Source of the DNA: Campylobacteraceae bacterium
GTDB taxonomy: Bacteria > Campylobacterota > Campylobacteria > Campylobacterales > Sulfurovaceae
DNA length: 64,000 nucleotides
Direction of reading: 5' to 3'
Assembly (NCBI GenBank): GCA_027100635.1
Contig: JAMOOQ010000001.1
Location: forward strand, 1-64,000
Shown here: in pieces, positions 34,909 through 51,190 of the stretch
Position numbering within the stretch: the first letter of the stretch is position 1
Layout: each line of letters starts with the position of its first letter
Position numbers and translations under genes: made by a program
Notes under the pieces: model-generated
What the model was told of the DNA's origin: nothing
What the model saw: only the letters and a program-made list of their open reading frames with translations
Databases searched by the model: none

Positions 34909-37489
34909 ATTTCAATACAACACTTGTTTCGGTTCAATCTCCACAATCACACTCGCAGTATGAACCCAAATTAATTTCAATACAACACTTGTTTCGGTTC
35001 AATAAGAGCAACAACCATAATTCCAGCCATCTCCTCAACATTTCAATACAACACTTGTTTCGGTTCAATGTTTTGTAAATTTAAGCGAAGGAGCTGGAGT
35101 TCCATTTCAATACAACACTTGTTTCGGTTCAATTAGCTGTTATACTAAGTATGATATTCAAGGGTGTACATTTCAATACAACACTTGTTTCGGTTCAATA
35201 CTAATTTTTCTACTTTTAAAGAGAATTTTTCTAAATTTCAATACAACACTTGTTTCGGTTCAATTCGCATTCATAACTGGAGCTAGTGTCGTAGTAATAG
35301 ATTTCAATACAACACTTGTTTCGGTTCAATCATAAAATTTTGCTAGACATAAGGGACTTTCCCTTAATTTCAATACAACACTTGTTTCGGTTCAATTAAC
35401 ATTATTTCTCCTTTTAGCGTAAGTCCAAAAAAATTTCAATACAACACTTGTTTCGGTTCAATCAAAGATAAACTGTTCACTTAATTTTACTAAATCTATT
35501 TCAATACAACACTTGTTTCGGTTCAATATCTTATAAGTTAATACATTTAAATTACAGACCCTATTTCAATACAACACTTGTTTCGGTTCAATACTGCCTA
35601 TGCAATAAAAGAATTTAATGATTTGATATTTCAATACAACACTTGTTTCGGTTCAATACTTTATTGTCACTCTGTTGATATTGAAAAGTTTAGATTTCAA
35701 TACAACACTTGTTTCGGTTCAATCTAATAGTTATAGTAATTTTAATATATTGATAGAGGATTTCAATACAACACTTGTTTCGGTTCAATATTTTTAGTGA
35801 TGACGAAATGGGGCAATTTCTATAATTTCAATACAACACTTGTTTCGGTTCAATAAAGAGATTGAAGCTGAAATTCTACAAGGGTTTAGATTTCAATACA
35901 ACACTTGTTTCGGTTCAATTGGATATTCGGAAGGATTTGTAAACCGTGGAAGTATATTTCAATACAACACTTGTTTCGGTTCAATTCTGGTAATAGTAAA
36001 AAAAATAATAGCTTAAGTTAATTTCAATACAACACTTGTTTCGGTTCAATTCTCTTCATATTTAATGTCGTAATTATTATCTCTATTTCAATACAACACT
36101 TGTTTCGGTTCAATCTGTTCACGCCAACGATATTGGGATGACAACTTGATTTCAATACAACACTTGTTTCGGTTCAATCTATTAAATTCCAAATTCAGGG
36201 TTTTTAAACTAGCCATTTCAATACAACACTTGTTTCGGTTCAATTTAAAATATTTTAGTAGTGGTGGTGGATCGGTATTAATTTCAATACAACACTTGTT
36301 TCGGTTCAATTTTTGCTTCTTTACCAAATGGTACAACATTACAAAACATTTCAATACAACACTTGTTTCGGTTCAATGGTTCTGTTATGGCAGATGAATG
36401 GAACGCTGTTGAATTTCAATACAACACTTGTTTCGGTTCAATTAAGATTTTGCTAGACATAAGGGACTTTCTCCCTTAATTTCAATACAACACTTGTTTC
36501 GGTTCAATTAAAGACAATATTAAACAGGCTAGTTTAAAAACCCATTTCAATACAACACTTGTTTCGGTTCAATAAGAGGCTTGCGAAACTTTAGACCTAA
36601 ATGATTGGAATTTCAATACAACACTTGTTTCGGTTCAATTATTCAATTTCTAAAATATTCTCTAAATTTTGAATATTTCAATACAACACTTGTTTCGGTT
36701 CAATTTGGAATATTGTGGGTTATTGAAAAAATATTAGGAAATTTCAATACAACACTTGTTTCGGTTCAATAAGCTGTGTTGTATACGATTACATTAATTG
36801 ATTAATTTCAATACAACACTTGTTTCGGTTCAATACGCAACTGGATTTCTAAAAGAGGCTTGCGAAACTTATTTCAATACAACACTTGTTTCGGTTCAAT
36901 TCAAATAGATTTTTGTTTGTTCTATAAAGTAGCTCTATTTCAATACAACACTTGTTTCGGTTCAATTTGCTTAAATAGTTCAACATCCCACTCGTGTTTT
37001 TTTATTTCAATACAACACTTGTTTCGGTTCAATTATTAAGCCCCACAAGGACAATAATAAATCTTTTAAATTTCAATACAACACTTGTTTCGGTTCAATA
37101 ACTATAGAAATATTAAGAGAAAAAAACGCATGTAAATTTCAATACAACACTTGTTTCGGTTCAATAAGTTACAAAAGCTTCTATCGAGTTAGATGTTAGA
37201 TTTCAATACAACACTTGTTTCGGTTCAATTAAGTACCCAGTAAACAAGGCCAAAGCTTACGAGCATTTCAATACAACACTTGTTTCGGTTCAATTTGGAA
37301 TATTGTGGGTTATTGAAAAAATATTATCAAATTTCAATACAACACTTGTTTCGGTTCAATCTTCAACTTTTCTTTTCTCAATGTTTTTTCCATGATTTCA
37401 ATACAACACTTGTTTCGGTTCAATAAATGGTAGAATCTCATATTGGAGAAATAATCAAGATTTCAATACAACACTTGTTTCGGTTCAAT
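34909..37489 (-). CRISPR. CRISPR array 1, 40 repeats and 39 spacers
   Basis: Forty copies of a 30-bp repeat that on the forward strand begins ATTTCAATACAACACTTG and ends TTTCGGTTCAAT, without visible variation. Spacers are 34-37 bases. On the minus strand the repeat starts ATTGAACCGAAAC and ends GTATTGAAAT, giving the ATTGAAAN 3' handle typical of type I-B. This sets the transcription direction as minus, with the leader at the high-coordinate end next to cas2. Newest spacers should therefore be those near 37460. Two pairs of near-duplicate spacers and one pair of overlapping spacers lie within the array. Confidence 0.98.
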
Positions 37490-37638
37490 GAAAGGATTAT
37501 CGGCATCTTATAAAACACCTCACCTCTCTAACGCCCTAAATAGGGACTTTGGCTGATTTTTTCCAGCCATTTTAACAACTCAACAATAAATAGTCAAATA
37601 TCATCTATAAGTACCATTATATCGCAGTTTAACTTACC
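37490..37638 (-). promoter_or_regulatory. CRISPR leader of array 1
   Basis: About 149 bases between array 1 and cas2, nearly identical to the leader of array 2 (four substitutions and a one-base indel by eye). On the minus strand it holds TATAAT in GCGATATAATGG at 37616-37621, about 127 bases before the first repeat. Inverted repeats TGGCTG/CAGCCA (37550-37569) and CCCTA/TAGGG (37534-37545) are further features. These are likely transcription and adaptation signals. Confidence 0.88.
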
Positions 37639-37663
37639 TTTTCCTAAATTATAGGTTGGAAAA

Positions 37664-38970
<1,307 letters not shown>

Positions 38971-38982
38971 AATTATCTCCTT

Positions 38983-39480
38983 TTATATAAAACAGTACTC
39001 ATAATAAGCACACTTTTTACATTTTTTTTCTAGGATAGGTTTTGGTGAATATTTTTTAGCTATTAACTCTTCTATATTTTCTAAAACCTCTAAAAGCTCT
39101 TTCTCATTGACCTCATCAAGCTCAATATAATCAATCTTTTTCCCTTTTCCTCTTTTTTCTATATATTCAATTTTACCTTTTTTGATTACACCTTTTTGTT
39201 TGAGTTTATAAAGATAAAGTAAGACCTGCCATTTTACAGCTTCTCTATCACTATCAGACTTTTTAACCTCTACAAGATAATCTCGTGTAATCTTATCTAT
39301 TTTGATATTATCAATGCTAATCTCTGTCTTTTTACCTTTTTTTTCACTAATTTCATGTAAGACTTTTCCTATTCGTACATCTTCACTATTATCTTCTAGG
39401 TTTATACGATTAGCGTGTAGCCAACATTGGGTTTTACAATGAAAATAATAGTTTATTATTGTCCCTGTGATATTTTTCAT
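38983..39480 (-). CDS. cas4: CRISPR-associated exonuclease Cas4
   Basis: A RecB-like nuclease of 165 residues that trims prespacers and helps choose PAM-bearing ones. It carries Cys15 and Cys19 near the N terminus, His42 in GKVLHEI, the Glu71-Val-Lys73 motif in LVEVKKS, the QVLLYLYKL helix, and the C-terminal Fe-S cysteines Cys154, Cys157 and Cys163 (CKKCAYYEYC). It is followed by cas1 after 12 bases and overlaps the MntA-like gene by 4 bases. Confidence 0.95.
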   Translation of the reverse strand: MKNITGTIINYYFHCKTQCWLHANRINLEDNSEDVRIGKVLHEISEKKGKKTEISIDNIKIDKITRDYLVEVKKSDSDREAVKWQVLLYLYKLKQKGVIKKGKIEYIEKRGKGKKIDYIELDEVNEKELLEVLENIEELIAKKYSPKPILEKKCKKCAYYEYCFI

Positions 39481-39770
39481 AATTTTATCCCCTTATCCAT
39501 CTCTTTTTTTAGTAAATCATTTGCTAAATCATAATGTACTAAGTCTATAGGCAAATCTAAATCTCTCAAAATAAGATATTTAAAAAAACGAACCTTTGCC
39601 TTAGTAAATGCTTCTCTATTTATAGTTGAACGCACGGCTATATCAAAATCTCCACCTTTTTTAGTATCATCAATACGACTACTACCAAAAAGAATAAGCT
39701 TTGACTCACCAAAAGCCTCTGTTGAGGCTTCTATAAACTGTTTTCTAAGATAAGGAGAGAGTCGCATCAT
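39477..39770 (-). CDS. MntA-type nucleotidyltransferase antitoxin
   Basis: A minimal nucleotidyltransferase of about 97 residues. It has the full GSx10DxD motif (GSSRIDDTKKGGDFDIAV) and the helper LPIDLVHYD, as in MntA antitoxins that AMPylate the HepT toxin. The start at 39770 follows AAAGAGAT and is preferred to an upstream ATG at 39803; the second ATG at 39767 is equally possible. It overlaps both the HEPN gene (26 bases) and cas4 (4 bases), so it is fixed in the cas operon. No inactivating change is seen. Confidence 0.88.
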   Translation of the reverse strand: MMRLSPYLRKQFIEASTEAFGESKLILFGSSRIDDTKKGGDFDIAVRSTINREAFTKAKVRFFKYLILRDLDLPIDLVHYDLANDLLKKEMDKGIKL

Positions 39771-40215
39771 ATCTCTTTGCAAATGCAAATACTTTATGCA
39801 CAATCGCTTCTAATTCATCAAAACTATCTACGCAATATTTTAAATCATTAAGTGCTTCTTGAAGTTTATCAGGATAGTCATGCTCCAAATCATTTCTGAT
39901 ATTTCTAAACTCTATCCATTTATCAAGACTTACAATCTCTTCTTTTTCAATGAGGGTCAAAACTTCACTCATCTTAGTATAAGAAATCCCCGAAATATCA
40001 AGCAAACCTTTAAAAACTTTTGCTCCAAGATAATCTTGCAAAGATGAAAAGCGTTTAAGATAAGCTTCTAAAACAGCTTTACCTTCTATATTTAATATTT
40101 CAAATTCATCAATAGAAAAATCAAAATTTGAGCTATCAATATACTCATGATACTCTTTTAATGCACGATAATGTGATTGTACTTTTTTCAGTTGTTTTTG
40201 TAGTATTTGTTTCAA
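39745..40215 (-). CDS. HEPN ribonuclease toxin, HepT-like
   Basis: A helical 156-residue HEPN protein. The RNase motif is Arg107-x4-His112 in RNDLEHDY, with Tyr114 at the position that MntA modifies in known RX4HXY HepT toxins. The upstream NIEGKAVLEAYLKRFSSLQDYLGAKVF matches the family helix. HepT cleaves RNA or tRNA when not held by its antitoxin. It lies 14 bases after cas3 and overlaps the antitoxin gene. Its position between the interference and adaptation genes is unusual; an addiction or back-up role is inferred. Confidence 0.88.
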   Translation of the reverse strand: MKQILQKQLKKVQSHYRALKEYHEYIDSSNFDFSIDEFEILNIEGKAVLEAYLKRFSSLQDYLGAKVFKGLLDISGISYTKMSEVLTLIEKEEIVSLDKWIEFRNIRNDLEHDYPDKLQEALNDLKYCVDSFDELEAIVHKVFAFAKRYDATLSLS

Positions 40216-40229
40216 ATTATTTTCCTTTT

Positions 40230-42401
40230 TTATAAATATCCATTCCTATCCTCAATATTTTCAACTTCATCATTAGTTAAACCAATATCACTATGATATT
40301 TTAAAGCAATCATAGGAAAAACTCTTTTATATCCATCATATTCAAAAAAAGTTATCTTATCTTTATTTGCCATATATTTTTTCTTACTAATAGATACAAA
40401 TAGTTTTTCAGCTTCTAAATACCTTTTATTTTCTATAAATTTCATAAACTCATCTCTTAACTCAATAGGTAAAACTTCAATACCATCAAATTGAGAAAAA
40501 AACTCCTCTTCATTCTCTTCATATACATTAAATGGATATAAGTTATCTAAATATCCTCTAAACTGTTCTCGTAAATTATCCTCATTGAGTTTAAAAGGTT
40601 CATATATTTTATCTAATAGACTTTGCACAATATTTTCATTGATGACTATATCTTGAATACAGTTTAATTCCTCTAATGTATTTTCAAGAAGTGTTTTATC
40701 ATAAATAATTTTATGCACATCTTCAATTACACTTGTCACAAAACAATTAGCTTCATCACTCTGCTTTAAAACTCTTTTTTGTTCCCTATAAACTCGTCCA
40801 AATCGTTGGAGTAAAGCATCAAGTGGAGCAGGTTCGGTCACTATCAAATCATAATCAATATCTAAACTAACTTCAATAGCTTGTGTTCCAACCAATAGTT
40901 GAGGCTTGTTTTTTGACTGTACAGATTTCTCTTTTTCAGTCCTATCTCTTCCATTAAATCCACTATGAAGTAGTGTTTTATCTAAACACTCTATAGACTC
41001 ATAGATCTCTTGTGCTTTGGCAACGGTATTACATACAACTAAAACTGTTTTACCATCATCTATTTTTGACTGAATAAAACTTTTCTGTTCATCTATAGTT
41101 GAATCAAGTAGTTTTATCTTATGTCTTTGAATAGTATATATCAACTCTTGATTGGGTCTAATCTCTTTTTCTATTTTTAGAGTAATTTTGATATACTCTT
41201 GCATAAATGTTGGCATAGTAGCCGTCATAATAAATACTTTAACTTCTAGCTTATTCATAAGCCACTCTATAAAAAAGAGTATTCGCCTAAAAAGTTCTCT
41301 ATCATAGATATGAATCTCATCAAAAATTAGATAAGCCCCTGCTAATTCTGTAAAACCTTTTTCAAACCCTTTCACTCCAAAAGCCCATTTTAAAATTTGA
41401 AAAGGGGTAACTATTTTAAAAGGTTTGATAATCTTTTTGTTAATATCTATCAATTCTTTTAGGCTTTGTCCATCTTTTCTTTCATAATACTCATCTATAA
41501 AAAACTTAGCTTTTCCATGTAAAAGTCCAACCAAAGACTCATCTCCAAAACCTTTGTCTTGACTTGATACTCTTTTAGTCATTGCATTAATAGAAGCTGT
41601 AAAAGGAAGAATATAAAAAGCTCTTCCTTGTCTTATATTAAGCTGTGTTTGTAACCAACCTAAACTACTCTCTGTTTTGCCTTGTCCTGTTGGAGCAATC
41701 AACAGAGTATTACCTTTTGTTTCCCAAGAGGCTTTTTGATGATAGTATGGTTCATCTTTTGTATTGTATAAAAAACTAAAATTTTCTTGTTCAATGATAG
41801 GAATATTTTTGATACCTGCTGAAGCATTATGGTCACAGATAGAGAGTGTTGCTGATAAGAAAATATTTTGGAATTTTTCTAGTTCAGAGATTTTTTTCTT
41901 GGCTCTTTTTGAAGTCCATTTCTTAATTATTTTATTCAAATCATTAAGTTTAAACTCTTTTAATTCAATATTATGTTTTGATAAAAAATTCTCTATCCAC
42001 ACAAAATCTAAAGCTTCAAATTCTTTGTCTATCCACCTATCTTGATTATATTTTTTGTTATTATCATATTCATTCAATAACTCTTTTAATTTTTCAAAAT
42101 TTTTATGATGTGCCAAAACAGCATTTATGATTAACTCATTATCTGTATAATTTTGAGCTACAACTGCACTCAAAACTTCATGACGAAATCTATATTTTTT
42201 GCCTGTTGTCATTAAATTTTGAAAGCCTTTTGTGCTTTTACCTATATCATGAAACAAAATAGAGATTTTGAGATAGTTCCAAAACGCATCATCTCCAAAA
42301 AGTTCTTTTAATACAGGAAAAGCTATTTGAAAAGCTTTAGAGACATCCAATAAATCTTGAATATGTTCCTCTAAACTCAATCCATCAGATTTGGCTAACA
42401 T
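40230..42401 (-). CDS. cas3: CRISPR-associated helicase-nuclease Cas3 (HD fused)
   Basis: The effector of type I interference, 723 residues. The N-terminal HD nuclease has His13, His51-Asp52 (LFHDIGKSTKGF), His74 and His98-His99. The SF2 helicase has Walker A APTGQGKT (236-243), DEIH (361-364), TAT (393-395) and QRFGRVYRE. It degrades target DNA after Cascade binding. The start overlaps cas5 by 7 bases. All catalytic residues appear intact. Confidence 0.96.
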   Translation of the reverse strand: MLAKSDGLSLEEHIQDLLDVSKAFQIAFPVLKELFGDDAFWNYLKISILFHDIGKSTKGFQNLMTTGKKYRFRHEVLSAVVAQNYTDNELIINAVLAHHKNFEKLKELLNEYDNNKKYNQDRWIDKEFEALDFVWIENFLSKHNIELKEFKLNDLNKIIKKWTSKRAKKKISELEKFQNIFLSATLSICDHNASAGIKNIPIIEQENFSFLYNTKDEPYYHQKASWETKGNTLLIAPTGQGKTESSLGWLQTQLNIRQGRAFYILPFTASINAMTKRVSSQDKGFGDESLVGLLHGKAKFFIDEYYERKDGQSLKELIDINKKIIKPFKIVTPFQILKWAFGVKGFEKGFTELAGAYLIFDEIHIYDRELFRRILFFIEWLMNKLEVKVFIMTATMPTFMQEYIKITLKIEKEIRPNQELIYTIQRHKIKLLDSTIDEQKSFIQSKIDDGKTVLVVCNTVAKAQEIYESIECLDKTLLHSGFNGRDRTEKEKSVQSKNKPQLLVGTQAIEVSLDIDYDLIVTEPAPLDALLQRFGRVYREQKRVLKQSDEANCFVTSVIEDVHKIIYDKTLLENTLEELNCIQDIVINENIVQSLLDKIYEPFKLNEDNLREQFRGYLDNLYPFNVYEENEEEFFSQFDGIEVLPIELRDEFMKFIENKRYLEAEKLFVSISKKKYMANKDKITFFEYDGYKRVFPMIALKYHSDIGLTNDEVENIEDRNGYL

Positions 42402-43117
42402 AGACTTCTCAATAGTACAGAACTGTGTAACTCCTCATCAAAATAGGCATCTGCTGATACTTCATTTTCAAATTTATTAAACTTCCAGTTTTTCATATCA
42501 AATTGTTCTATCTTATTTCTTGGCTCATATAAAAAACCACCTAATCCATCATTGATTAAAAACGGTTGAACACCTCTTGGCTCTCTTACGATATTACTAT
42601 TATCAAAATATTTAGGCATTGCATAAATTTCACCTGAAGATTTAAACTCATTAAAAGGCACTATCGTACCATTTAAAACAGCTTTATCACTCTTGATTAC
42701 TTCAATCTCTTTCACCTCAACAACTCTTGCTAAATCTCCACTTCGCCCCATAAGAAGTTGAAAGATAGGAGATTTAAAAGCATTAGCTATCTTCTCATTT
42801 TCAAAATAGAGTGTTAAATAACAATCAAAAAGTATCTCTCTTTTAAAAGTTGGGTCTTGAATTACCCTTTTATTATTTACAGAATTTCCCTTTTTTTCAA
42901 ACTTATAAATCGTTTCTAAATCTACATAAGAAGATTGGTATCTAAAAATATAAGAAAATTTAAAATCAACCAGTTTATCATCTCCTGAGGCAGAAGCAAC
43001 CATTCCTGCTATAGTTGTATAGGAAATCGCCTTGATACTAAGTTGATTTGAACTTATAAAATTTGGATACCTAAAACTAGCTGTTTGAGCTGTGATAAGT
43101 ACACGATATAGCTTCAT
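42395..43117 (-). CDS. cas5: Cascade subunit Cas5 (type I-B)
   Basis: A RAMP-fold protein of 240 residues with the Cas5 start MKLYRVLITAQTASFRYPNF, the QLSIKAISYTTIAGMVASASGDD segment, and LMGRSGDLARV, which matches the LGR(S/R)E block. Cas5 binds the 5' handle of the crRNA. It follows cas7 by 1 base and overlaps cas3. Its relatedness looks closest to the Cas5t (TNEAP) branch, which fits the neighbouring Cst1- and Cst2-like genes. Confidence 0.93.
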   Translation of the reverse strand: MKLYRVLITAQTASFRYPNFISSNQLSIKAISYTTIAGMVASASGDDKLVDFKFSYIFRYQSSYVDLETIYKFEKKGNSVNNKRVIQDPTFKREILFDCYLTLYFENEKIANAFKSPIFQLLMGRSGDLARVVEVKEIEVIKSDKAVLNGTIVPFNEFKSSGEIYAMPKYFDNSNIVREPRGVQPFLINDGLGGFLYEPRNKIEQFDMKNWKFNKFENEVSADAYFDEELHSSVLLRSLC

Positions 43118-43118
43118 T

Positions 43119-44243
43119 TTAGACTATAACCGTATCTAAAGTTTGAATAAATTCATCAATCGTTTTATTGATACTTTCTGTATGAATTTCTATACCATCT
43201 ATTTCACTTTTTAAAATATTCAAACTTACATCATCCATAAAACCACTTGCTTTACCAATATAAACATCACTTCTAAGATACTCTTTATTATCTAGAATCG
43301 CCTCTTTTAAAGCTTCAATAGACAAAGTAGCTCTTCCATTCTCTTCTACAGCAATATTATCAAAAATATTATTACCACCTTTAAATACAGCCAATATAAT
43401 AAAATCAGGTTTTACACTCACATAATTAGTACTTCTTTTAGCTCCACCTGCAATTGTTTTAAGTGCTATTATCGTATCTTTTGCTCTTTGCATTCTTATA
43501 CTATTTTCTAATCTTGCTCTTTGAACATTTGGATTAATTAAATCATCTACCTCTGTACCAGTTTCTAAAACTTTGTTATAAGTAATATCTGTAACATTTT
43601 TAAATCCCGAACGATTTATTTTTGTAAATGTTCCTACTTGGTCTAAATCAAGAGAAAACATACCTTTTAAAACTGTAGAATAAGATTGCTTTTCATAAGG
43701 TACTGCATCTCCATCTTGTCTAGCCATAGTTGAAAATTCATTCAAAACTTTTTTATCAATTGAAGTGACAGATGTTAAAATAGAGTTTTTAAGTGGACTA
43801 ATTCTTGTAACCGTTACATCTTCCATTTTAGGATTATCTCTGTTTTTACCTCTTCCTCCAATTAAAACAGTATTACCATCTTCGTCTTTGACCTCATCTT
43901 TACTAGCTCTCATATATCCAAAGAGATCATCATCAGCATAGTTTAAAGGGTTAGCATCTGTAAAAGCTATTTTTTTATCTCTTGTAATTGGGCTTAAACT
44001 CCAACCATTTAATCCTAGTGATTCTCTCCACCAGTATCTCCATGCTTGACCTGCTACAACAGCATACATCCTTCCATTTTTAAATACTTTTTTAACAGCA
44101 GATGTATTATCCATACCTTGTGTATTAGTGGCATCACTACCCCAATTGTTTAAACTTGCACCATCAACATCAATCAAAATTGAACTATGTACAAAATAGT
44201 TTTTAACCTCATCATCTTTAATTATCTTTTCAAAATTACTCAT
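43119..44243 (-). CDS. cas7: Cascade backbone subunit Cas7 (Cst2/DevR-like)
   Basis: A protein of about 374 residues forming the crRNA-covering backbone. Recognisable parts are VHSSILIDVDGASLNNWGSD, AGQAWRYWWRESL, PLKNSILTSVTS and SYSTVLKGMFSLDLDQVGTFTK, all typical of Cst2/DevR Cas7. The ATG at 44243 has AAGGAG six bases before it and is preferred to the ATG at 44258. It overlaps the cas8 stop by 8 bases. Confidence 0.93.
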   Translation of the reverse strand: MSNFEKIIKDDEVKNYFVHSSILIDVDGASLNNWGSDATNTQGMDNTSAVKKVFKNGRMYAVVAGQAWRYWWRESLGLNGWSLSPITRDKKIAFTDANPLNYADDDLFGYMRASKDEVKDEDGNTVLIGGRGKNRDNPKMEDVTVTRISPLKNSILTSVTSIDKKVLNEFSTMARQDGDAVPYEKQSYSTVLKGMFSLDLDQVGTFTKINRSGFKNVTDITYNKVLETGTEVDDLINPNVQRARLENSIRMQRAKDTIIALKTIAGGAKRSTNYVSVKPDFIILAVFKGGNNIFDNIAVEENGRATLSIEALKEAILDNKEYLRSDVYIGKASGFMDDVSLNILKSEIDGIEIHTESINKTIDEFIQTLDTVIV

Positions 44244-45630
44244 CTTCATCTCCTTCATTTAAATTTTCTATTGTTTCTTCTTCTAAATTCATTTTTTCAT
44301 ATAAGGCAATCAATAAAATATCTTTTGTCTCATACCAACTTTCACCACTTGGTAAAATATATAAAACCATCTCATCTACAGTAAATAGTGGCTTTTCTGA
44401 TTTAGACAAAAACTTTCTCATCAAAATTCTCAAATTCTCTCTAAACTCTGTTTGTGATTTTGTCATCTCTATAGGACGAACAATCTTTTTATAAAATGTT
44501 TTATCATCTTCATTGAAAAGTTGTAAATTATCAGCAACTTTTTTGATTATATTTAGTCTCTCTTCTCTCATACCTTTTATCTCCTTTAAGTATATTGTAG
44601 TTAATTTCCAACTACAAAGATTTTTTTTGAAATAGTATAATATTGATTTCCCTTGAATAAAGTTAATAATCAAGGGATTAAAATATTTTATTGTAGATTT
44701 ATAATACTTATTCTCAATAACATCTTCTTGAAATTTAATCGTTTTAGCTTTGCCATCAATACTCTCTTTTCGTGTCCTAAATTTTCCACTATTATCTTTT
44801 GAAGAGTATTTAAAAATAAGATAATTCCACTCATCTTTTTGTTTTGTTGGAAGCTCATTTTTAAAAAACTTTGGAGCAACATTATGTAAAAATTTCATCT
44901 GATTTTCAGAAATATGAACTACATTTATCTCACTACCTTTATCTACATTAGAAATCAAATAAAATGTTATATCTCCAAATAATCCTTCTTCTTGAAGCTC
45001 CTCAATCATATTATAAATAAAATTTTCAAAGATATTAATTTTAGAATCTACAAGAGAATCTATATTTTTTACAATATTTGCATTAAACTCATCACTATTT
45101 TCTTCACTCCAAAACTTATTTATCTCTTCATTATTACTAATCATAAAGCCCATACGACCCGTTGTCTTTTGCATATTAATAGGTGCAAAAAAGAGTGAAG
45201 TCATACAAACTTTACACATTAAAAACTTATTAGAAAAATTTGATGTAAAATTTGCATTGCTATTTCCTGTGGTTAAAGGGAAAATAGTTTTACTCACGCT
45301 ACACAAATTATCTTTTTTACCACAAGAGAGACAATATCCATCAAAAGATTCTTTTATCAATCCATTATATAATTCCAAAGCTTGTTTTAATCGTTCATTT
45401 AAATTTTTACCAGTTGAGTTATGCGTAAATTTTGAATTTGAAGAAAACACTTGTCCAAGTCGTCCACTTGTTTTAAAAGTATAGATATTAAAAAGTTTTT
45501 TTACTTCTTCATTTAGCTCATCTAAACTGCTAAACTTATTTTTCTTAGAAAATTCAATCAAGCCAAGCCGTCCAATCTCCACCATAGGGTCGCCCACTTG
45601 TTTTGAAAAGTCTAATATCTCTTTTTCCAT
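44236..45630 (-). CDS. cas8: Cascade large subunit Cas8 (Cst1-like, CxxC..CxxC)
   Basis: A 464-residue protein with a zinc-ribbon pair Cys100-x2-Cys103 and Cys139-x2-Cys142, the hallmark of the Cst1/Cas8 CXXC-CXXC type. The ends are GRLGLIEFSK and LLIALYEKMNL. Cas8 recognises the PAM and recruits Cas3. In many I-B systems an internal start in the 3' part gives a small subunit (Cas11); several in-frame Met codons occur there, but I cannot assign one. The ATG lies inside the end of the preceding gene. Confidence 0.9.
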   Translation of the reverse strand: MEKEILDFSKQVGDPMVEIGRLGLIEFSKKNKFSSLDELNEEVKKLFNIYTFKTSGRLGQVFSSNSKFTHNSTGKNLNERLKQALELYNGLIKESFDGYCLSCGKKDNLCSVSKTIFPLTTGNSNANFTSNFSNKFLMCKVCMTSLFFAPINMQKTTGRMGFMISNNEEINKFWSEENSDEFNANIVKNIDSLVDSKINIFENFIYNMIEELQEEGLFGDITFYLISNVDKGSEINVVHISENQMKFLHNVAPKFFKNELPTKQKDEWNYLIFKYSSKDNSGKFRTRKESIDGKAKTIKFQEDVIENKYYKSTIKYFNPLIINFIQGKSILYYFKKNLCSWKLTTIYLKEIKGMREERLNIIKKVADNLQLFNEDDKTFYKKIVRPIEMTKSQTEFRENLRILMRKFLSKSEKPLFTVDEMVLYILPSGESWYETKDILLIALYEKMNLEEETIENLNEGDEDE

Positions 45631-46127
45631 TTTTCATACCTCACATTATAAACTTTATCTTCGTTATAACATTCCAAAGAGTTTGGAAATGTCCAAATCA
45701 TATATTTTTTACTTAATTTTTTAAAATCTATCTCCATTTTATCCAAAATATCTATCAAAAACAATACTTGTTTATCCATTCCATTAAAGAGAGATAAATT
45801 CATTGAACCCTCATCTTCTATATCTATTATCGCATTAAATGGATTTCTTTTTTTGGTTGGAAATAGATTATTATAGATATAATTTAGTAGATAAATATTG
45901 GCATTCTCACCGTAAAAAAATATATCTTTAGCTGATAGTTTTAGTTTAACAGTTTTCTTATTCAAAAATTTTCTCACATACTCTTTGAAAATCTTATCTA
46001 AAAAGTCATCATCACTAGGGTCAATATATATCCCTTTTTGTTTTAATACAATTGTTGTAATATCGTATTTTGATAAAAAATTATCTTCATTTTTTGTTTT
46101 CCAACTAGCCCATTTAACTTTTATCAT
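45612..46127 (-). CDS. unknown gene of the cas operon, upstream of cas8
   Basis: A 171-residue protein I do not recognise. It is basic at both ends with a central FFYGENANIYLLNYIYNNLFPTK and IIDIEDEGSMNLSLFNGMD, suggesting alternating strands and helices. It starts after AAAGGAGTAAAT and its last 19 bases overlap cas8. It is too small for a RAMP and lacks zinc cysteines. It could be a small Cascade subunit, an anti-toxin-like factor, or an accessory protein; nothing decides this. Confidence 0.7.
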   Translation of the reverse strand: MIKVKWASWKTKNEDNFLSKYDITTIVLKQKGIYIDPSDDDFLDKIFKEYVRKFLNKKTVKLKLSAKDIFFYGENANIYLLNYIYNNLFPTKKRNPFNAIIDIEDEGSMNLSLFNGMDKQVLFLIDILDKMEIDFKKLSKKYMIWTFPNSLECYNEDKVYNVRYEKWKKRY

Positions 46128-46179: not shown

Positions 46180-46824
46180 CTAATTGCTTTCATCTATTTC
46201 CCTTTTTACAACTTGTAAGTTTTTATAGATTTGTTCTAAATCCTCTCTCTCTGTAGCATCATATTTTTTAGATATATGATACTTATATTTTTTATCTTCT
46301 ATCTTCTCTAAAAAAACAAATGTCCATACATATCCCATAATATAAGCACCTTTTATATCTTTAGAATTATTAATATATGTAGCAACTATCATCTCTGCTA
46401 AAAGTTGCTCTTCAGGGAAAGATGCAGAAGCTTGTTTAAATTCTTGAATGAAAAAATATGGTTTTACTGGGCTTGAATATCCTTTAGCTACCACATAATC
46501 ACATCTACCATTAAATGTAATATCTTCAATTTTATATTTTAAAGGTGTCTTATAAAAATCTCTAATATGTTTATCTTCTAATTCAAAATCAATTCTATTT
46601 AAAATAGGAGCAATAAATTTAGAAATTAATTCTAATTCCGTATAATTGACAATTTTATTGATATGTCTTTTAATCAAAGCCTCTAAAAATATCTTATCCT
46701 CTTTTAAAATTTTATCTTCTGCAAAAAACCATTTATCAAATATTTGTCTATCATAATTTTTCTCTATATCAAATATTTCTTCTAGTTTATTAAGTGTAAT
46801 AGTTGAGTACTTTAAAGTTCTCAT
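46180..46824 (-). CDS. PD-(D/E)XK-like nuclease embedded in the cas operon
   Basis: A 214-residue protein. The core is FNGRCDYVVAKGYSS, a strand, then YFFIQEFKQASASFPEEQLLAEM, which gives the Asp...Glu-x-Lys pattern plus the following helix with a Gln-Leu pair expected of restriction-like nucleases. Before it is a helical region; after it comes GAYIMGYVWTFVFLEK, the last core strands. It overlaps the cas6 stop by 4 bases (ATGA) and is followed by a 52-base gap. It is not a standard type I-B gene. A host type I restriction R-like fragment is less likely because it is intact and in-operon. Confidence 0.65.
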   Translation of the reverse strand: MRTLKYSTITLNKLEEIFDIEKNYDRQIFDKWFFAEDKILKEDKIFLEALIKRHINKIVNYTELELISKFIAPILNRIDFELEDKHIRDFYKTPLKYKIEDITFNGRCDYVVAKGYSSPVKPYFFIQEFKQASASFPEEQLLAEMIVATYINNSKDIKGAYIMGYVWTFVFLEKIEDKKYKYHISKKYDATEREDLEQIYKNLQVVKREIDESN

Positions 46825-47555
46825 ACTTTTATCCCCCTACCCAAACAAAATCCTCCACCAAAGCTATTTTTTTCTCCAAGTCCACAAGCCAAAGCAATAA
46901 ATGCCAGTTTTTGAGAATTTTCATCTTCATTTGGAACAATCCTAAACTTATTGCCATAAAATTTAAAGGATGTTACTTTTTTAGTTTGTTTATCTGTTTT
47001 ACTTGTTTTTATAGTTTGTAATCTATTGTTTTTAAGTTCAAAGAGTTGTATAAAGTTTTGGGATGATTTTATATCCTCATCATAAAAGTCTTGATATTTT
47101 TTTTCTAGGTTATTTTGTAGTTGTTTGTATAGGAGCATCAAATCATCCTCTTTTGTCCAAAATCTTCTATTTGCTAAAGATATTATAACAGGAGTAGCTG
47201 AATAAAGTTGAGTTATAAAGAATTGTTTGATGGTTTTTTTGTTAGTTTGTACTATAAGTAGATTTGGATTATTTATATTTTCTCTAAGAGTTTTAGATAG
47301 AGTATCTATTAATTCTTCATTTAATGAGCGAATATTAAAAGAATATGTATTGCCTTGTTTATATGTCTTAGTTTTTTCTATTGGATAAAAAATATCAAAA
47401 GTATAATGTTTAAATTTATTTTTGTTATGTAACTCTTTTAGAGTGCTAGTTTGAGCCATTGAGTAGCTTATATATTTACTAATAGTTTCAAAACTATCTT
47501 GGAAGTTAATATCTTTTTTGAGGTATGCCGTGCATTTTAGTTCATAATATTTCAT
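46821..47555 (-). CDS. cas6: CRISPR RNA endoribonuclease Cas6
   Basis: The pre-crRNA processing RAMP, 244 residues. The first ferredoxin-like domain starts MKYYELKCTAYLKKDINF. The C terminus has the glycine-rich loop GLGEKNSFGGGFCLGRG that binds the repeat. The likely general base is a histidine in KELHNKNKFKHYTF. It cuts the transcribed repeats to leave the ATTGAAAT 5' handle. It is the first gene of the operon, with TATAAT about 21 bases upstream on the minus strand. Confidence 0.93.
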   Translation of the reverse strand: MKYYELKCTAYLKKDINFQDSFETISKYISYSMAQTSTLKELHNKNKFKHYTFDIFYPIEKTKTYKQGNTYSFNIRSLNEELIDTLSKTLRENINNPNLLIVQTNKKTIKQFFITQLYSATPVIISLANRRFWTKEDDLMLLYKQLQNNLEKKYQDFYDEDIKSSQNFIQLFELKNNRLQTIKTSKTDKQTKKVTSFKFYGNKFRIVPNEDENSQKLAFIALACGLGEKNSFGGGFCLGRGIKV

Positions 47556-47662: not shown

Positions 47663-50600
47663 ATTTTAATATAACACTTATTTTGGTTCAATTAGAGGTA
47701 TTAAATTTGTATTGGAATGGGTTAAAGTATTTCAATACAACACTTGTTTCGGTTCAATCATATTTTTGAGTAATGAAGATGTACCGTTACCCCTATTTCA
47801 ATACAACACTTGTTTCGGTTCAATACTCTAAAGGCTCTGCTTCTAAAAAAACTTTACCTTCATTTCAATACAACACTTGTTTCGGTTCAATTGTAGTTTA
47901 TAAAGAAAAAAAGAGAAAACAAAGAAATTTCAATACAACACTTGTTTCGGTTCAATAAAATAAAAAATTACTAAATATTTATTAAAAATACTATTTCAAT
48001 ACAACACTTGTTTCGGTTCAATCTAAAGAGTTTGGAAAAATAATTAAGCCTTTAGTATTTCAATACAACACTTGTTTCGGTTCAATTGTACACGGAACAT
48101 AAGAGGCAGATATAAAGGGTTATTTCAATACAACACTTGTTTCGGTTCAATTTTTAATATATTTTAATACCAAAAGAATCTCCTCCTATTTCAATACAAC
48201 ACTTGTTTCGGTTCAATTACCACCTAAGAGAGAATGGGTAGACCCAATCAAATTTCAATACAACACTTGTTTCGGTTCAATGTTAGGGCAAGGACAAAAA
48301 GGGGGAATTGGGGCTTATTTCAATACAACACTTGTTTCGGTTCAATGTTAAAGTGTAATTACTTGCCATTTTTATCTCCTTTATTTCAATACAACACTTG
48401 TTTCGGTTCAATATTTTTCCAATTTCTGTTAAAAAAATACATCCAAAATTTCAATACAACACTTGTTTCGGTTCAATAGAGATATAGAAAATGAGATTTT
48501 ACAAGGATTTAGATTTCAATACAACACTTGTTTCGGTTCAATCTTTTTAGGGTATAAAAGGTTTAAGAGAAGTGAATAATTTCAATACAACACTTGTTTC
48601 GGTTCAATGCTTAAATAGTTCAACATCCCACTCGTGTTTTTTTATTTCAATACAACACTTGTTTCGGTTCAATAATGGTTTAAATAAATTTAAAAAAATT
48701 AATTGGGAATTTCAATACAACACTTGTTTCGGTTCAATTTACCCAAAGAATCTCAAGAGAAGAGGAGGTGGACGAATTTCAATACAACACTTGTTTCGGT
48801 TCAATCAGTTGGACTATGTATTCAAAAAGATGTCGGATATTATTTCAATACAACACTTGTTTCGGTTCAATATGATTGCCCCACTATTCATTTTGCACCC
48901 TGCACCCATTTCAATACAACACTTGTTTCGGTTCAATATATATAGAAGATGCAAATGTTAAAACGCCAACAATATTTCAATACAACACTTGTTTCGGTTC
49001 AATACTGTCCACAATTGGAGATAGAAAATTCTGGAAAATTTCAATACAACACTTGTTTCGGTTCAATTCTTCAACTGTTGCTAAAGCAGGTAACGTAAGT
49101 AAATTTCAATACAACACTTGTTTCGGTTCAATAAAGTGGATATGATGAAAAATCATTTTTAAATATATTTCAATACAACACTTGTTTCGGTTCAATCTCT
49201 TTCCATCTCTTCTTTGCCTTATATCTCCCAAATTTCAATACAACACTTGTTTCGGTTCAATTCTTTCCATCTCTTCTTTGCCTTATATCTCCCAGATTTC
49301 AATACAACACTTGTTTCGGTTCAATAAGTGATAGTTTTGAAGGAGTTTCTACTTATCAGTTATTTCAATACAACACTTGTTTCGGTTCAATAATGTCATT
49401 TCTTCAAATGTGATTGAAAATGACTAATTTCAATACAACACTTGTTTCGGTTCAATTCTATAACGTTGAGGTGGAATTTCGAAGAAGTCACCATTTCAAT
49501 ACAACACTTGTTTCGGTTCAATGAACCAAATTTAATTAAAATGCTATCTAAAATTTGATTTCAATACAACACTTGTTTCGGTTCAATCTTTGTCTATCCT
49601 CAACCGAGATTTGGTTAAATTGAGATTTCAATACAACACTTGTTTCGGTTCAATCTAGTGATATATCAACAAGTTATTTAAAAAGAGTATTTCAATACAA
49701 CACTTGTTTCGGTTCAATTTTAGGCGAATTTGAAGATTCTTTTATTGAGGATTATTTCAATACAACACTTGTTTCGGTTCAATAACTATAGATTTTTTAG
49801 ATATTCAAAACAAAAATGGATTTCAATACAACACTTGTTTCGGTTCAATGGTATTAATGCAATCAATTATGATAGTGCGACGATATTTCAATACAACACT
49901 TGTTTCGGTTCAATATTAATAATCCCAAAAATGCATAAGGTAAAGTCTCCATTTCAATACAACACTTGTTTCGGTTCAATTTTGAGGCTCTTAAAACAAA
50001 TATAAAAGGTTGTCTATTTCAATACAACACTTGTTTCGGTTCAATAGCCTCCTCTTGGGGGTTTGAAAGAAAAAAAATGAAATTTCAATACAACACTTGT
50101 TTCGGTTCAATCTATACATCAGAGTACTTTACTGTACAAAATCAAGAATTTCAATACAACACTTGTTTCGGTTCAATCCCATTGTTTTAGATTGTGTTTA
50201 TTTTGCTTAATTATTTCAATACAACACTTGTTTCGGTTCAATCTTTTGCACATTTGCTAACGAACCCACAAATACAAATTTCAATACAACACTTGTTTCG
50301 GTTCAATTAGTAGTATTAAAAGTCCACCAATTGGTGTAGAGGTATTTCAATACAACACTTGTTTCGGTTCAATGGCAGATAAAGTTGAAAAATTGGGTGG
50401 AAATGTTGAATTTCAATACAACACTTGTTTCGGTTCAATCAATCAAGATTTAAGCAACTGGAATGTTTCTAGTGATTTCAATACAACACTTGTTTCGGTT
50501 CAATGAAATTTGGAGCAGATAGAGTATCTATCACCAATGGATTTCAATACAACACTTGTTTCGGTTCAATTTCAAGAATTAGCTGAGCGATTCCTAAAAG

Positions 50601-50765
50601 AGGGATTTCAATACAACACTTGTTTCGGTTCAATGCAAAAGTAAAGATTACTACATATTCTCTAGGTTAATTTCAATACAACACTTGTTTCGGTTCAATC
50701 ATCTTTACCAGTTCTTAAGTTTTTTAAATATTTTAATTTCAATACAACACTTGTTTCGGTTCAAT
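47663..50765 (-). CRISPR. CRISPR array 2, 47 perfect repeats plus one degenerate terminal repeat
   Basis: The same 30-bp repeat as array 1: 47 intact copies and a degenerate one at 47663-47692 with four changes, all transitions. The degenerate copy marks the old end, so the leader is again at the high-coordinate side and transcription is on the minus strand. There are 47 spacers of about 34-37 bases. One spacer is shared with array 1 (48609-48643), two adjacent spacers are near-duplicates (49197 and 49262), and one resembles a diverged spacer in array 1 (48478). Confidence 0.98.
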
Positions 50766-51008: not shown

Positions 51009-51085
<77 letters not shown>

Positions 51086-51115
51086 ACATTTAGAAAGTTT
51101 CTTAACTATTACAGC

Positions 51116-51190
51116 TGGATGGGGTGAAGGGATTCGAACCCCTGAATACCAGTACCAAAAACTGGTGCCTTACCGCTTGGCCACACCCCA
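51116..51190 (-). tRNA. tRNA-Gln (TTG)
   Basis: A 75-base cloverleaf with CCA encoded. It starts TGGGGTGTGGCCAAGCGG, has the anticodon loop TTTTGGT (anticodon TTG) on a CCAGT/ACTGG stem, and GGGTTCGAATCCC as T-arm. The acceptor stem is TGGGGTG/CACCCCA. It is probably co-transcribed with the initiator tRNA. Confidence 0.95.

Follow-up and report, generated by a model that had tools for sequence, protein, structure and literature searches.

Songailiene et al. 2020 (Mol Cell) are said to have described a HEPN-MNT pair in the vicinity of a type I-D CRISPR-Cas system of Aphanizomenon flos-aquae. The pair characterized here is likewise found with type I CRISPR, but lies inside a type I-B operon, where it separates cas3 from cas4 and overlaps the latter gene. 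Class I HEPN/MNT toxin-antitoxin (TA) pairs are defined by the motifs RX4HXY and GSX10DXD, PF08780/PF01909 pairs being among them; in characterized systems, HEPN cleaves cellular RNA and MNT places AMP on the RX4HXY tyrosine (Yao et al., PMC7641770). A Legionella HEPN-MNT pair is toxic and AMPylated, with the catalytic site being disputed (PMC11586414), and in Thermus one strain of two has an MNT-HEPN insertion in a lysine operon (PMC2701414). Among TA modules linked to CRISPR, CreTA guards type I CRISPR-Cas (PMC12737573). In CreTA the toxin is an RNA and the antitoxin, which is crRNA-like, depends on Cascade, whereas both members of our pair are proteins and no ectopic repeat was found; the likeness is that CRISPR loss is penalized (PMC8501985, PMC9458426), which for our pair is a proposal. 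In Clostridioides difficile, type I TA modules are also co-located with CRISPR and a stabilizing role has been proposed, but these modules adjoin arrays (PMC6079278), whereas the protein TA pairs reported below lie between cas genes.

The type I-B locus in the window (the whole 64,000-nt stretch analyzed) is complete and encoded on the minus strand, with the gene order cas6, PD-(D/E)XK accessory, orf171, cas8b, cas7, cas5, cas3, HEPN, MNT, cas4, cas1 and cas2 (Table 1). Pfam, NCBIfam and PADLOC confirmed the Cas identities.

Table 1. Features of the type I-B locus in the window, cargo at junctions of homologous I-B loci, and I-B positions of close relatives of the HEPN-MNT pair
Feature	Locus	Position	Strand	Remark
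CRISPR array 1	window	34909..37489	-	orientation inferred
cas2	window	37664..37972	-	by position and match to same gene in homologous loci
cas1 (type I-B)	window	37966..38970	-	
cas4	window	38983..39480	-	start shares ATGA with MNT stop
MNT gene, predicted AMP-transferase antitoxin	window	39477..39770	-	
HEPN gene, predicted RNase toxin, HI0074-like	window	39745..40215	-	
cas3 (HD + helicase)	window	40230..42401	-	
cas5 (Cas5b, Tneap type)	window	42395..43117	-	
cas7	window	43119..44258	-	by sequence and position in homologous loci
cas8b	window	44236..45630	-	
orf171, accessory without family match	window	45612..46127	-	
PD-(D/E)XK CRISPR-associated accessory	window	46180..46824	-	
cas6	window	46821..47555	-	
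CRISPR array 2	window	47663..50765	-	repeat as array 1
HEPN-MNT	window			cas3-cas4 cargo
PIN/VapC + Phd-like	L089	2621-3227		cas3-cas4 cargo
HipA + HipB-like HTH	L087	1884-3321		cas3-cas4 cargo
GNAT acetyltransferase + small partner	L104	4872-5643		cas3-cas4 cargo; partner's RelB-like match only weak
Bro-N protein	L097			cas3-cas4 cargo
ParE/RelE-like + small partner	L096			cas3-cas5 cargo
Septu-like PtuA/PtuB	L094	4291-6416		cas8-cas7; PADLOC
Septu-like PtuA/PtuB	L096	6218-8375		cas8-cas7; by eye
Septu-like PtuA/PtuB	L100	6807-8956		cas8-cas7; by eye
Septu-like PtuA/PtuB	L103	6956-9159		cas8-cas7; by eye
UG13-type defense reverse transcriptase	L089	5603-7402		cas5/cas3 junction
Fic	L100			other junction; L107 alike
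YhcG nuclease	L035			other junction; L088, L089 by homology
SIR2-STAND	L092			other junction
RhuM-Fic	L083			other junction
PD-T4-5-like protein	L098			other junction
Close relative of pair	window			cas3-cas4
Close relative of pair	L033			cas6-cas8b
Close relative of pair	L034			cas8-cas7
Close relative of pair	L035			cas6-cas8
Close relative of pair	L039			after cas8, contig end

Coordinates, strand and position of the pair between cas3 and cas4 agree with the original prediction, and mapped gene ends bear out its description of genes on one strand separated by 14 bases or overlapping. The toxin gene comes first, 14 nt from cas3, and overlaps MNT by 26-59 nt. HEPN has a TTG start codon preceded by AAGGAA; MNT starts with ATG at 39770 and has an alternative TTG, the start of the listed open reading frame, at 39803. 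The best promoter site found for the pair scored 9/12, which is no better than chance. Overlap with cas4 had been read as linkage tighter than mere proximity. Same-strand packing this tight does not count as specific evidence, since it is matched by that of wider relatives in housekeeping operons, at carA/purA, mobB/fbp and gltB.

The RX4HXY motif predicted for HEPN is present as RNDLEHDY (residues 107-114), with R, H and Y unchanged across the alignment of 14 HEPNs. HI0074 (TIGR01987) was the sole family model matched by the window sequence, at 20.3 bits and below the cut-off of 55.8; the same weak match was seen in 14/14 HEPN members, six of which also touched PF08780. Structural modeling gave a confident HEPN helical fold (pLDDT 92). 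When the PDB was searched with this model in Foldseek, the best-ranked matches included solved toxins from HEPN-MNT complexes, with a probability of 1.00 and TM of 0.59-0.72; the E value of only about 0.15 is expected of a small helical bundle.

Residues of the GS...DXD signature were found in 13/13 aligned MNTs. The window protein does have the exact GSX10DXD originally claimed, but owes it to a duplicated Ser: its loop reads FGSSRIDD, whereas 12 aligned relatives have FGSR or YGSR, and an AGT-AGT codon duplication (window 39660-39700) present in no aligned relative turns GSX9DXD into GSX10DXD. This active-site loop, one residue longer than in all relatives, is the least confident region of the MNT model. 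A third Asp lies within LPIDLVHYD. The protein passes PF01909 (29.2 bits, cut-off 21) and falls below the cut-off of the MntA model (21.4 bits, cut-off 60), which was matched by all 13 MNT members; solved relatives by sequence include MntA (5yep) and HI0073 (1no5). The name HepT/MntA is consequently a loose one, favored by motifs, fold and PF01909 but not by scores, which lie below curated HepT, HI0074 and MntA cut-offs. Judged by sequence, the pair is HI0074/HI0073-like and a remote member of the HepT/MntA class, and motif and fold fit Class I HEPN/MNT. It shares with type VII HepT/MntA (Shewanella SO_3166/SO_3165; Legionella pneumophila) two small adjacent genes, RX4HXY, GS..DXD and the fold. 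It differs in scoring far below cut-offs, in having the toxin first, in residing within a cas operon, and in an MNT loop whose length is unusual among the relatives of the window pair.

Using two Cas7 types, we recovered and mapped 27 I-B loci from 399 genomes of the order. The pair was found in two of these, the window and L034, at different junctions. The gene order that the original prediction proposed to look for in other I-B loci is not conserved, most of the 27 lacking the pair, and a conserved (core) cas accessory is ruled out. In the closest homologous loci (L083 and L084) the junction is empty, with cas4 directly after cas3. In some empty loci, such as L092, the ends of cas3 and cas4 share 4 nt, so that by overlapping cas4 MNT re-establishes an arrangement that is older. 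The cas3-cas4 junction could be resolved in 18 loci and held cargo in five, four of them with unrelated protein TA pairs in operon orientation (Table 1). This reuse of the slot by unrelated TA pairs is more interesting than the HEPN-MNT pair itself. PIN, ParE, HipA and HI0074-like HEPN genes were observed five times in cas operons (227 kb) versus 0.69 expected (P = 7.5e-4), a value biased outside HEPN-MNT since the families were chosen after being sighted in cas operons. For HEPN alone, the one family that the finding itself had set, 2 versus 0.07 expected were observed (P = 0.003), one of the two being the window pair itself.

Close relatives of the pair, collected from Campylobacterota genomes, form one clade (support 99/97). 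Half of the 10 placeable members are inside I-B operons at several junctions (P about 8e-10 for a target size of 0.5% of the genome, for members that are kin); L048 was left out as unplaceable, stopping 112 nt upstream of HEPN. In L033, only the last ~45 codons of orf171 are left just upstream of HEPN. Outside cas operons are L036, L037, L038, L044 and the broken copy L049. Of these, L036 is ~2.5 kb from Cas10-like genes with an opposite-strand gene between, L044 (5995-6619) has lost the active-site segment of HEPN while retaining intact MNT, and the HEPN frame of L049 is broken. By parsimony, the tree of the close clade needs four switches between cas and non-cas positions, and junctions differ. 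None of the wider clade (50-58% identity) was seen in cas operons; these relatives occupy other same-strand clusters, adjoining carA (L050), between mobB and fbp (L068), after gltB (L069, L070) or after pgi (L040). Because the wider clade is also packed into same-strand non-cas clusters, embedding in operons is a habit of the module, and preference for I-B operons is a trait of the close clade. No phage or plasmid carriers of the pair were found in IMG/VR, plasmid or phage searches. The link to CRISPR put forward originally is thus upheld as recurrent (5/10) and beyond chance, although position is not conserved and HEPN-specific coupling to Cascade is unsupported: I-B loci of relatives mostly lack the pair, which also occurs at unrelated sites, but half of the placeable close relatives are still in I-B operons. 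The refutation named in the original prediction is thereby partly borne out. Elsewhere in the same genome lie two HEPN relatives that are more distant, and one of them has an internal stop (G000:C43:19851-20126 and 37352-37672; L003 and L002).

In our view the pair is probably a mobile HEPN-MNT module, present as cargo that is co-expressed with a cas operon into which TA pairs are repeatedly taken up; addiction is the likely benefit. The module would have entered between cas3 and cas4 with both flanking genes left undamaged. The ATGA overlap that joins cas3 to cas4 in some empty loci would have passed to MNT, and the pair may be read within the cas transcript. By analogy with characterized HEPN-MNT systems, HEPN is predicted to be an RNase cutting cellular RNA and MNT to silence it via AMP transfer to the RX4HXY tyrosine. 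Deletion or silencing of the segment would remove MNT while unmodified HEPN is still made or persists, and loss of the cas segment would be penalized. I-B cas operons of the order take such modules repeatedly, and unrelated TA pairs can occupy the same cas3-cas4 slot. That TA types without kinship can replace one another at a single junction points to a generic effect, either addiction or tolerated selfish cargo, and speaks against HEPN-specific contact with Cascade. Addiction that stabilizes the locus is a prediction, and the likeliest and most economical benefit of the pair. Collectively, the data suggest that the operon repeatedly picks up TA modules, perhaps because the immune system then becomes hard to lose, and defense-island clustering without benefit to CRISPR could give a similar pattern.

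Neutral or selfish hitch-hiking, with insertion of the module into any operon that tolerates it and no gain for CRISPR, is a possible but rather doubtful account. Cas operons would be suitable hosts, being permissive, non-essential and horizontally moving, and the relatives embedded in other same-strand clusters and the damaged HEPNs of close relatives outside CRISPR fit such behavior. Septu, Fic, YhcG nuclease, SIR2 and reverse transcriptase genes also occupy cas junctions, and no strong TAS-CRISPR link emerged in Makarova 2009 (PMC2701414). The close clade is, however, strongly skewed to I-B operons, and cargo of the cas3-cas4 slot is mainly TA pairs. The older reading of HI0073/HI0074, under which the pair would be no TA system but an inactive or metabolic nucleotidyltransferase with its binding subunit, is in our judgment highly improbable. 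Although sub-cut-off scores against HepT/MntA models, the family name 'nucleotidyltransferase substrate-binding' and the GSX9DXD of aligned relatives are compatible with that reading, neither the RNase motif nor the acceptor tyrosine varies, and PF08780/PF01909 pairs count as Class I TA (PMC7641770). Furthermore, Foldseek ranks the Legionella HEPN-MNT toxin high, and this pair is toxic and AMPylated (PMC11586414).

The original prediction also proposed a back-up response to Cascade damage. As a dedicated effector, HEPN would be freed by loss or inhibition of Cascade, or by infection, in a CreTA-like or abortive manner. TA guards of type I-B Cascade provide a precedent (CreTA; PMC8501985, PMC9458426), and a spacer at window 47825 matches the HEPN gene (40064-40086) at 26/37 positions, slightly above the 95% level of shuffled sequences; this borderline, AT-rich match is probably due to chance. 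The antitoxin is nevertheless a protein encoded within the pair, junctions vary, and some genomes or contigs have the pair but no cas genes linked to it. With as many as 11/30 mismatches allowed, no CRISPR-repeat-like sequence turned up around the pair, and there is no sign of a CreTA-like guard, whose crRNA-like antitoxin has degenerate repeats. With no ectopic repeats nearby and unrelated TA types in the same slot elsewhere, a Cascade-specific back-up is unsupported, and we judge a dedicated effector quite improbable. A bolder and, in our estimation, unlikely proposal is that interchangeable TA pairs at the cas3-cas4 boundary between interference and adaptation in type I-B operons were selected as controllers of adaptation, the TA promoter and/or cas4 overlap tying Cas4-Cas1-Cas2 to TA activation. 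Dormancy and spacer acquisition would then rise together during infection. Near-consensus promoters (11/12) directly before the VapBC-like (L089) and GNAT (L104) pairs, together with the ATGA that VapC of L089 and MNT of the window each share with cas4, are hints of such control; the window pair is without such a promoter.

A 2012 hypothesis paper described immunity loci as carrying toxins, apparently without antitoxins of typical TA systems (PMC3506569). The I-B loci, in contrast, carry whole protein TA pairs, and at one junction these belong to at least four unrelated kinds. No paper on interchangeable protein TA pairs at cas3-cas4 of type I-B was found in the literature collection searched, which covers few subscription journals. 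Empty, HEPN-MNT, VapBC-like, HipBA-like and GNAT versions of the junction constitute a ready comparison set, a natural locus series in which two old ideas are testable: protection of CRISPR from loss by TA pairs, and a coupling between dormancy and spacer acquisition.

CRISPR arrays with one repeat type flank the cas operon on both sides. Orientation of array 1 was deduced from the repeat end, ATTGAAAT, and a repeated flank at 37.46-37.67 kb. The flanks of the two arrays are 99% identical. Near-identical spacers were observed within array 1 (window 36705 and 37295) and across both arrays (window 36968 and 48608). A search of the locus for structured RNA yielded two tRNAs only. These tRNA genes (51012-51190) adjoin the array 2 flank and may be a landmark for integration of the CRISPR locus.
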